DNA of 64,000 bases from Peptococcaceae bacterium CEB3 (lineage in GTDB: Bacteria; Bacillota; Desulfitobacteriia; Desulfitobacteriales; Desulfitobacteriaceae), in contig LDXJ01000064.1 of the NCBI GenBank assembly GCA_001029295.1, positions 248,001 through 312,000 of the forward strand. Direction: 5' to 3'. Position 1 is the stretch's first letter. Each line of letters opens with the position of its first letter. Positions 16,111 to 34,650 of this stretch are shown piece after piece. The notes below the pieces were generated by a model. That model was not told the origin of the DNA and searched no databases. It saw only the letters and a program-made list of their open reading frames with translations. Position numbers and translations under genes: made by a program.

Positions 16111-16113
16111 GCT

Positions 16114-16212
16114 TTTTAGCCCAGTCTTCCCTCCGCTGGCATTACCCAGATCAGGTTCGGTCGGCGGTAACGTTAACCACCCTCTCAGCCCAATTCCTTG
16201 GGCTCCCGTTCA
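16114..16212 (-). ncRNA. TPP riboswitch (THI element)
   Basis: The minus strand carries the conserved blocks GGGCTGAGAGGG, GAACCTGATCTGGGTAAT and GCCAGCGGAGGGAA in the correct order. It heads the MTH1187-permease-ThiY-ATPase operon and is followed by an intrinsic terminator. Confidence 0.95.
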
Positions 16213-16317
16213 ATATTCCATTATCCCTCCTTTAAGGTAGCACAGATGCCGAATTTATTCAAGTATTCCCGTGCTTTCTTCCGCCGGCGTCGATCCGCCT
16301 TTCGCCTTTTCATCCAA

Positions 16318-28920: not shown

Positions 28921-28949
28921 TTGACAATTGTCCGGGTTGGAACTAATAT
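28921..28949 (+). promoter_or_regulatory. Strong sigma-A promoter ahead of the Mn riboswitch
   Basis: TTGACA (28921-28926), 17-base spacer, TAATAT (28944-28949). Transcription should start near 28956, giving a leader of almost 490 bases to pspA. Confidence 0.85.
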
Positions 28950-28981
28950 CTCTTTGTAACATGCATATTGCTCTTAACGCG

Positions 28982-29110
28982 TGTTAAGGGGAGTAGCGAG
29001 CGGCAGGAGTGCCGTGGATAGGTCGTCAGAACGGTTGAAATTTCAACCCGGCCTATCCCCAAGAATCTTGGTTGCAAGACCTTACCTGAGGGTGAGGTCT
29101 TTTCTAGTTT
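28982..29110 (+). ncRNA. yybP-ykoY riboswitch (Mn2+-sensing)
   Basis: Family blocks are in order: TTAAGGGGAGTAGCG, a variable stem, GGTCGTCA, an AT-loop stem, and TTGCAAGACCTTACC pairing with GGTGAGGTCTTTT. The last hairpin with its T-run could also serve as a terminator. The nearest downstream gene is pspA, 330 bases away. Confidence 0.88.
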
Positions 29111-29269
29111 CCGGTAGAGGCCGATCCTTCAGGCGCGAGGAGCAAAGGGCCGGGGAAGGGGGAATAGGCAAAAGAGCACTTCGCAGTGACAACAAATCTG
29201 CTCTCAATCTGTAACAAAAGGTCCTGTCAAAACGTAGTTAAAGCGAAGAAGAATGGTTTCCGCAGTGCG

Positions 29270-29395
29270 TTGCGGAAGGCGTATTCACCAAGGAGTTGGG
29301 GATAAGCGCATTCCGAGAAGCGGAGGTATTTCGAGAAGCGTATTCCAAGGAGAGGTATTCCGAGAAACGTATTCCAAGGAAAGGTATTCCGTTGT
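29270..29395 (+). repeat. Tandem repeats in the pspA leader
   Basis: CGTATTCCAAGGAGAGGTATTCCGAGAAA and CGTATTCCAAGGAAAGGTATTCCG occur with a 29-base period, preceded by weaker copies (GCGTATTCACCAAGGAG, GCGCATTCCGAGAAGCGGAGG). The stretch is noncoding and lies within the transcribed leader. Confidence 0.7.
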
Positions 29396-29441
29396 ATCAT
29401 GTATTTATGAAAGGTTTAGCAAAGAAAGGGGACGTTTAACC

Positions 29442-30119
29442 GTGGGTGTATTTAGCAAAGTCAGGGACCTCTTGCAAGCGAACATTATGGATATCGTGAA
29501 CAAGGCGGAAGATCCGGAAAAGATGCTTAACCTTTATGTCGACAGGGCCACCGAAGAAGTGCGCAATTTCCAGATTCAGGTTAACCGCGCAGTGGCAGAC
29601 AAGATCCAGCTTGAGGAAAAAATTCAGGCTCTGAACAAAGAAATTTCTCAACGGAGCGAGCAAGCCGCCTTGGCGGTGCAACAGAACCGGGACGATCTGG
29701 CGCGGACCGCTCTAACTTTGAAGAAAGAAGCGGAGAACAGCCTGGCCGACTATCAGGCACAGCTGAGTGACCAAGAGAAAGCGGTCAGCGATTTGCAGGA
29801 GAATCTGCGCCTGCTGACGGAGAAATTGGGTAAGGCCAAAATAGAGCGGGACAATCTGGTCATGCGGGAACGCCGGGCGCAGACCATGAAAAAGGCCAAC
29901 GAAGCGGTCTCCGGTTTGTCGAGCCGCGACCCGCTGGGAGATATTGACCGGATGAAGGACCGCGTGGACCGTATGGAGGCGGAGGCTAAAGCTTCCCGGA
30001 CTATGGTAGAGTCCAATAGTGTCGAGGATCAATTTGCGGACTTGGAGAAAGGAAAGACATCCGCGGCCGTGGAAGACGAGTTGGCGCAGCTTAAGGCCAG
30101 TCTAAAAAAAGACGAGTAA
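29442..30119 (+). CDS. pspA: Phage shock protein A / IM30 (LiaH-like) membrane-stress protein
   Basis: 225 residues, almost entirely coiled-coil helix. The amphipathic N-terminus M-G-V-F-S-K-V-R-D-L-L-Q-A-N is the family membrane-binding helix, followed by E-D-P-E-K-M-L-N-L-Y-V. PspA oligomerises on the inner membrane under envelope stress. The GTG at 29442 has AAAGGGGA at 29425-29432. A frame extends upstream to 29253 but only through repeats. Its leader holds a Mn riboswitch, an unusual arrangement. Confidence 0.93.
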   Translation: MGVFSKVRDLLQANIMDIVNKAEDPEKMLNLYVDRATEEVRNFQIQVNRAVADKIQLEEKIQALNKEISQRSEQAALAVQQNRDDLARTALTLKKEAENSLADYQAQLSDQEKAVSDLQENLRLLTEKLGKAKIERDNLVMRERRAQTMKKANEAVSGLSSRDPLGDIDRMKDRVDRMEAEAKASRTMVESNSVEDQFADLEKGKTSAAVEDELAQLKASLKKDE

Positions 30120-30606: not shown

Positions 30607-31587
30607 ATGAGGACAGGGACGAAAAGAGTTCTTCTATTCTGCTCAACTCTGGCTCTGCTGGCGGTCCAAGCCAACTTAGCCTTGGCCCGCGGAGGGGGAG
30701 GATTGGGCGGAAGTCTGGGCGGGGGCAGTTTCGGCGGCGGAGGATTTTCCGGAGGGGGTTTCTCCGGGGGAGGATTCTCCGGTGGGTTTTCCGGCGGCAT
30801 GGGCGGCTTCAACTTCATGCCCTTTTTCTTGGGGGGCGGTGGCTTTGGCGGAGGCGGTTCCGGCGGGCTTTTCAGCCTGATTTTTCTTTTGGTTGTTCTC
30901 TATCTCGTTTTCAAAGCGATGCGCTCGGGCGGGGGAGGCTGGCAAAACCGGCAAAACCGGCCTTACAATCGGGGCAATGGCAATCCTTACAATCGAGGCC
31001 CCAGACCGTTGAGGCGGGAGGAATCGGTTGAACCGGTCGATTTGACAGGCCGCCCGATCAGCAACCATGAGGAATTGCAACGTTTTGCCAAAGCGATTTC
31101 GTTTACCAGGGAAAACATGGCGTATTTTGCTCAGACGTTTCCCCGCTGGGATCGTCCCCTGTTAGTGGCCAGGGTGAGGCAGGTCTTCTTCTGGCTGCAG
31201 GATGCCTGGAGCCGGGGGGATCTTTCGGGGGGTGAGGATTACTTGACCCCGAAGCTGGCGGCGGACTACCGGGAAAAACTGGCGGCGATGCGGGGACGCG
31301 GCGAGCGCAACATGATTAAAGAGCCCATCCTTGAACCCGACGAAGTGGAATTTGTTCACAGCCATTTGGACGAAAACAGTCAGCATTTCATGGCCATGAT
31401 TTTTGCCAGTCTGATTGACTATACCACTGACGCCCAGGGACGCCGGGTTTCGGGCGATGATACCCACCGCTTGTATTTTACGGAGTTCTGGGAATTTTTC
31501 TGGCAAGATGACAAGTGGGTTCTCGCCAATATCTACCAGGAAGATGCCCTGGAAGTGGCCAGATTGGCCCGGGGCGACGAACAATAG
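30607..31587 (+). CDS. Tim44-like domain protein, secreted or membrane-anchored
   Basis: 326 residues. A signal peptide (hydrophobic to about residue 27, A-L-A-R) is followed by a glycine-rich repeat of G-G-G-F-S units (about 28-70). One membrane helix (S-L-I-F-L-L-V-V-L-Y-L-V-F, about 95-110), a Gly/Arg/Asn-rich spacer and a Tim44-like lipid-binding domain (about 160-325) come next. The ATG at 30607 follows AAGGTGATAAG. The Gly repeat resembles those of related bacterial Tim44-like proteins. Its role is unknown, perhaps at the membrane together with PspA. Confidence 0.8.
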   Translation: MRTGTKRVLLFCSTLALLAVQANLALARGGGGLGGSLGGGSFGGGGFSGGGFSGGGFSGGFSGGMGGFNFMPFFLGGGGFGGGGSGGLFSLIFLLVVLYLVFKAMRSGGGGWQNRQNRPYNRGNGNPYNRGPRPLRREESVEPVDLTGRPISNHEELQRFAKAISFTRENMAYFAQTFPRWDRPLLVARVRQVFFWLQDAWSRGDLSGGEDYLTPKLAADYREKLAAMRGRGERNMIKEPILEPDEVEFVHSHLDENSQHFMAMIFASLIDYTTDAQGRRVSGDDTHRLYFTEFWEFFWQDDKWVLANIYQEDALEVARLARGDEQ

Positions 31588-34440: not shown

Positions 34441-34484
34441 TTCCGTCATCTCCGCTGCTCCCCACTCCCCGGGGAGTCTCTTGC

Positions 34485-34650
34485 GTTTCAGGCAGGTCTC
34501 CTGGCTCTCGAATCTTCACCTTTGCGCGCCTTCCCGGCCCGAAAGACCGGTGGCTTTGCGCAGGTTCATCGCACACAGTGGTGGGTCCGCGCCGGCTTGA
34601 ACCGGCTTCCCTATTCTCCCCGAAGGGCACCTGAAACAGAATCCAGAATA
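34485..34650 (-). ncRNA. Cobalamin riboswitch
   Basis: The minus strand carries TCAGGTGCC, GGGAA, GCGGACCCACCACTGT and the B12 box AGCCAGGAGACCTGCC (34491-34506) in order. It controls cobT-cobU-cobS by termination. Confidence 0.96.

Follow-up and report, generated by a model that had tools for sequence, protein, structure and literature searches.

To our knowledge, manganese riboswitches are known almost solely from exporter and TerC genes. The closest described systems are two members of the yybP-ykoY class, the Mn2+ riboswitches of L. lactis yoaB (PDB 4Y1I; PMC6754395, PMC11087558) and X. oryzae yebN (mntP) (PDB 6N2V; PMC6754395). Switching by mutual exclusion of helix P1.1 and the terminator has been demonstrated for the class (PMC6754395, PMC11087558). 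The discriminator adenosine of loop L3, A41 in L. lactis and A48 in X. oryzae, contacts Mn2+ in the solved structures and is stated to be invariable (PMC6754395).

In this study, an element of this type was analyzed in front of pspA in a 64,000-nucleotide stretch of DNA (the window). The element shared with the L. lactis yoaB riboswitch the L1 sequence GGGGAGUAGC, a GUCGUCA L3 with the discriminator adenosine, and a four-way junction that includes P2 and P4. The 3′ strand GCAAGACCUU and the overlap of the terminator with P1.1 were also shared. In contrast to L. lactis yoaB, the gene in the window was pspA and no transporter, an extra 5′ hairpin was present, and 339 nt of leader, holding another conserved ribosome-binding site, lay between the terminator and pspA. 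The ACAUAC-type L3 of the X. oryzae yebN riboswitch was shared by the pspA leaders of G003 and G011, although the yebN riboswitch, unlike these leaders, governs an Mn2+ efflux pump. The TerC, TerC-HtpX, NCX, GDT1, MntP, and P-type ATPase leaders of the same order had the same core, were recognized by the same model, and carried intrinsic terminators; they differed in mostly lacking P2 (three-way junction) and in governing transport or exoenzyme metalation genes. The features of the locus are listed in Table 1. The best-supported reading was that pspA itself is the target. It is likely, from the comparative evidence below, that the element is a functional transcription-ON Mn2+ riboswitch targeting pspA and probably also the following Tim44-domain gene.

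Table 1. Coordinates of the features at the pspA locus in the window.
Feature	Position	Strand	Description
Sigma-A promoter TTGACA-17-TAATAT	28921-28949	+	10/12 consensus matches
5′ hairpin CUCUUAAC-GCGU-GUUAAGGG	28971-28990	+	MFE fold; masks P1.1 5′ strand
yybP-ykoY-type aptamer	28984-29087	+	R1 105.8 bits; R2 51.6 bits, E 6.8e-11
P1.1	28985-28989/29080-29084	+	Aptamer switch helix
Loop L1 (GGAGUA), metal-site half	28990-28995	+	Invariant in 12/12 sequences
P1.2	28996-28997/29074-29075	+	Aptamer helix
P2	29000-29015	+	Aptamer helix
P3	29016-29058	+	Aptamer helix, contains loop L3
Loop L3 (GUCAGAAC) with discriminator adenosine A29028	29025-29032	+	Residue role from PMC6754395
P4	29059-29071	+	Aptamer helix
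Intrinsic terminator AAGACCUUACC-UGAG-GGUGAGGUCUU and U-tract	29076-29101	+	11 bp, −15.7 kcal/mol
Shine-Dalgarno-like AAGGGGG, mid-leader	29156-29162	+	Relatives have AAAGGAGG here, often followed by AUG-UAA
Short direct repeats	29310-29375	+	Sole true repeats in the leader
pspA (PspA/IM30)	29442-30119	+	GTG start, AAAGGGG ribosome-binding site
Tim44-domain membrane protein gene	30610-31587	+	Next gene after pspA

The Rfam model RF00080 gave no match in the window even at E 10, and none in the genome to which the window belongs. Therefore, two covariance models, R1 and R2, were built. R1 was made from 11 pspA-type leaders and one GDT1 leader, and detected about 45 further aptamers within the order. 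R2 was made with an automatic structure from 27 of these further leaders, mostly those of exporters (TerC, NCX, ATPase, MntP, GDT1), and contained no pspA leader. The aptamer in front of pspA was the single R2 match in the window, and all remaining pspA leaders were matched by R2 at E < 1e-5. Since RF00080 also stayed below its cut-off on clear GDT1, TerC, NCX, and MntP leaders of relatives and missed the ATPase leader tested, its silence would be a matter of weak sensitivity rather than a refutation, although the missing RF00080 match is a point against the riboswitch reading. Most aptamers of the order were missed or under-scored by RF00080, which appears to overlook a whole aptamer subgroup, and the Mn riboswitch regulon is then under-counted. 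Another Rfam family, SSRC10 (Streptococcus sRNA 10, RF02617), aligned over its full length to window positions 28983-29106 with 20.9 bits, under its cut-off. Its consensus shares GGGAGUAG, CGUCA, and GCGAGACC with the window; Rfam classes it as an sRNA, unlike the window element, and to judge by its sequence it resembles a terminated streptococcal Mn riboswitch.

The first-pass annotation had named a strong promoter and a full yybP-ykoY aptamer at this locus, and both were confirmed. The motif GGGGAGTAGC..GTCGTCA occurred once in the window and in none of 100 shuffles, and the fold of 28955-29110 had a z of −6.4 against shuffles. Loop L1 was joined to P1.1 and P1.2 at 28985-28997, and the aptamer 3′ strand read GCAAGACCUUACC. 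A28992 is, by hand alignment, the counterpart of L. lactis A10 (residue role, PMC6754395). The discriminator adenosine is A29028, equivalent to A41 of L. lactis and A48 of X. oryzae. The discriminator adenosine was present in 9 of 11 pspA-type aptamers, including that of the window, and, within the order, in all 44 of the remaining aptamers (two of them read by eye). The structure drawn by hand had a covariation score of 0.225, compared with 0.157 for shuffles, and outscored 500 of 500 shuffles; slid versions of the structure reached at most 0.098. Compensatory changes were found in P1 and P3 and also in P2 and P4, with P4 weakly supported.

The expression platform agreed with that of the class. 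The aptamer and the overlapping terminator together span 28985-29101, and the terminator 5′ arm includes CCUUA (29080-29084), which is the P1.1 3′ strand. Because both structures use these bases, the terminator and P1.1 are mutually exclusive, an overlap that the first-pass annotation did not mention. The terminator was conserved in all 10 pspA leaders, and 94% of its cells were paired in 12 aligned sequences. The U-tract of the window terminator is short (UUUUCUAG), which is a point against a functional riboswitch. The promoter would place the transcription start at about 28956. The computed fold without ligand was the OFF state, in which the 5′ hairpin covered the P1.1 5′ strand and the terminator was formed; this hairpin may be a competing ligand-free fold. 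A comparable hairpin was found only in G001, G057, G058, and G045 among the leaders compared, and a universal 5′ competing hairpin was rejected.

The PspA protein of the window matched PF04012 over nearly its full length (residues 2-220 of 225, E 2.9e-34). The promoter, aptamer, and terminator preceded pspA in 10 genomes of six genera and two families, among them Acididesulfobacillus acetoxydans, Paradesulfitobacterium ferrireducens, Candidatus Dichloromethanomonas elyunquensis, and Desulfosporosinus sp. BG. The gene following pspA usually encoded a Tim44-domain protein. The spacing between pspA and the Tim44 gene was 22-80 nt in most relatives, compared with about 490 nt in the window. In all 10 pspA leaders the promoter matched 10-12 of 12 consensus positions and lay 60-85 nt upstream of the aptamer. 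Aptamers were present in 100 of 299 Bacillota genomes; outside the bacterial class of the window, the linkage with pspA was found in none of the 80 aptamer-bearing Bacillota genomes checked, 22 of which had pspA.

The aptamer stood at 8 of 29 named PspA loci. On the PspA tree, the aptamer label needed two changes, one gain and one loss, compared with 8.5 for shuffled labels. The gain was placed at the base of a clade with 19 rows (support 99/95) and the loss in nine Desulfosporosinus-type rows (support 100/97). A single origin, in the ancestor of Desulfitobacteriaceae and close relatives, and a single loss, in the main lineage of Desulfosporosinus, would account for the arrangement. A terminator-like hairpin (GACCUUACUCGA..GGGGUARGGU) resembling that of the riboswitch stood alone in the leaders of two or three of these nine rows. 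Such a hairpin (GACCUUAC..GUARGGU) was seen in L070, L071, and L095, where it is perhaps a relic of a lost riboswitch, though this is suggestive only.

The aptamers of the order were followed first by genes for TerC, TerC-HtpX, HtpX alone, a sodium/calcium-type exchanger, P-type ATPases, MntP, GDT1/UPF0016, or DUF5685; these genes were mostly named by eye from the sequence, with Pfam checks on representatives. The usual context, an Mn2+ export or metal-handling gene downstream, lies outside the definition of the RNA class. It was absent from the window, where pspA and the Tim44 gene stood instead, and DUF5685 and HtpX were further exceptions. In three relatives (L030, L031, L039) the HtpX membrane protease gene lay directly behind an Mn-type aptamer without TerC. 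In four others (L040, L041, L043, and L046 of G038, G040, G055, and G042) an Mn-type aptamer preceded DUF5685 and then a DnaJ-like gene, an unusual target. In G045 (L018:3025-3149 and downstream) a pspA-type aptamer preceded not pspA but a gene for a putative single-helix protein of 55 aa, together with ybjQ, a member of a heavy-metal-binding family. In the host genome, a further aptamer (G000:C28) was found on a sodium/calcium-type exchanger, and none was detected at the host TerC, the host MntP, or the TerC of the sister species. On its minus strand the window also held a TPP riboswitch (16111-16219) and, upstream of the genes for cobalamin biosynthesis, a cobalamin riboswitch (34474-34649).

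The first-pass annotation had offered two options: either pspA is itself induced by Mn through the riboswitch, or an exporter gene between the riboswitch and pspA was lost, leaving the RNA an orphan. In the second case pspA would be a bystander. The comparative evidence favored the former, with induction by Mn2+ putative, and the latter was not borne out. Some observations did point to a deletion. In G003 a GDT1/UPF0016 gene with its own aptamer lies beside pspA, a CDF gene is found two genes upstream in several Desulfosporosinus, and the mid-leader Shine-Dalgarno with AUG-UAA might be what remains of a deleted gene. However, neither an exporter nor any other gene lay between aptamer and pspA in any of the 10 linked genomes. 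The pspA-Tim44 pair was also present in aptamer-less relatives with nothing inserted, and AUG-UAA occurred in aptamer-less leaders too. The host TerC and MntP genes lie elsewhere in the genome, and the exchanger retains its own aptamer. An orphan should decay, whereas the aptamer core and terminator were conserved across two families. Since neither the predicted intervening exporter nor decay of the RNA was seen, this explanation is unsupported, and we regard it as highly improbable.

It is unlikely that the RNA is only a short terminated transcript beside a pspA driven by its own promoter in the leader, with a linkage that regulates nothing. The length of the leader would allow this, and G035 and G007 have 11-nt-spaced TTCAT repeats with a TATACT-like box after the terminator. 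However, 9 of 10 leaders showed no sigma-A-type promoter between the terminator and pspA in a promoter scan, although a sigma-A scan of the 339-nt leader could miss extracytoplasmic-sigma or Pho-type promoters. Order and orientation were also kept in six genera, including Desulfosporosinus sp. BG, in which the aptamer and pspA sit together at a different locus and a second pspA has no aptamer. A third explanation keeps the fold and changes the signal, to another ion (e.g., Mg2+, Fe2+, or Cd2+) or to general envelope stress or transcription speed. The pspA-type aptamers do stand apart as a subgroup that has a P2 hairpin, in which L1 and L3 are 26-30 nt apart compared with 13-16 nt in 39 of 42 others, and two of these pspA-type aptamers have an altered L3. 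L1 and the discriminator adenosine are nevertheless intact in 9 of 11, window included, and their L3 sequences GUCAGAAC and GACAUAC are of the Mn2+-binding L. lactis and X. oryzae types (PMC6754395), which leaves a different signal very unlikely. The two altered loops, in G057 and G058 (L021:3040-3055, L022:2957-2973), read GACUAAG, with the discriminator adenosine not at its usual place; this would be either an A41-to-U change or a U inserted before the A. Since the X. oryzae RNA loses its stably docked Mn2+ state on an A48U change (PMC6754395), these two aptamers may differ in ligand or affinity.

The leader downstream of the terminator was also compared. The 330 bases of repeats described in the first-pass annotation were an overstatement: about 65 bases are repeated, as two 29-nt copies with 86% identity plus short copies, and the sister species lacks much of this region. 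Many pspA leaders had a strong Shine-Dalgarno sequence followed immediately by AUG-UAA, about 85-150 nt upstream of pspA; the window and the sister species kept the mid-leader Shine-Dalgarno without AUG-UAA. The AUG-UAA element was found alike in aptamer-bearing genera and in aptamer-less Desulfosporosinus (L016, L019, L021, and L022 with the aptamer; L070, L071, L076, L077, and L095 without it), with a GUG-UAA variant in L084, which suggested that the start-stop frame is conserved independently of the riboswitch. The strict form occurred in 7 of 31 leaders, compared with 0.19 expected and a maximum of 2 in 300 shuffles, an excess that is not readable as a probability because the leaders are related to each other. 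In L017 and L020, 11-nt-spaced TTCAT/TTCAC repeats resembling Pho boxes lay between the terminator and pspA, before a TATACT-like box; this is a possible second, phosphate-linked pspA promoter.

The STAB-SD of B. subtilis is a strong Shine-Dalgarno sequence in a leader with no gene behind it. The pspA leaders share this strong Shine-Dalgarno but often add AUG-UAA, and an effect on mRNA stability is putative; a literature search on bacterial start-stop frames found nothing matching. The Shine-Dalgarno with AUG-UAA may park a ribosome and protect the mRNA. We tentatively propose a two-stage leader, in which the Mn2+ riboswitch would set transcription and the downstream element would hold a ribosome, protecting or gating the mRNA. 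If this were true, membrane repair would answer jointly to Mn2+ and to the translation state.

On the reading that pspA is the target, the solved class members suggest how the locus would work. At low Mn2+, P1.1 would fail to hold, the terminator would form, and the pspA mRNA would end near 29103. At high Mn2+, L1 would be docked to L3 via A29028, and P1.1 would be stabilized; the terminator would then be blocked, allowing read-through into pspA. Excess Mn2+, or a burst of exporter insertion triggered by it, would stress the membrane, and PspA would be made as protection. In E. coli, overproduction of MntP is toxic, and membrane perturbation has been proposed (PMC11647493); HtpX co-purifies with Mn-handling TerC proteins in B. 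subtilis (PMC10246235). By extension, PspA may cushion the load from exporter insertion. The position of HtpX, a membrane quality-control protein, first behind the aptamer in three relatives was counted in favor of pspA as the target.

Among the papers found, none connected an Mn riboswitch with pspA or described induction of PspA by Mn; the supplement of the founding papers of the class might list pspA contexts. We know of no earlier Mn riboswitch aimed at membrane repair rather than transport. Since the pspA-linked sensor was retained across two families, these sulfate-reducing and related bacteria probably reinforce their membranes under excess manganese. An aptamer that remained at pspA while two families diverged would mean that manganese overload is a membrane problem in these bacteria, and not a cytosolic one alone.
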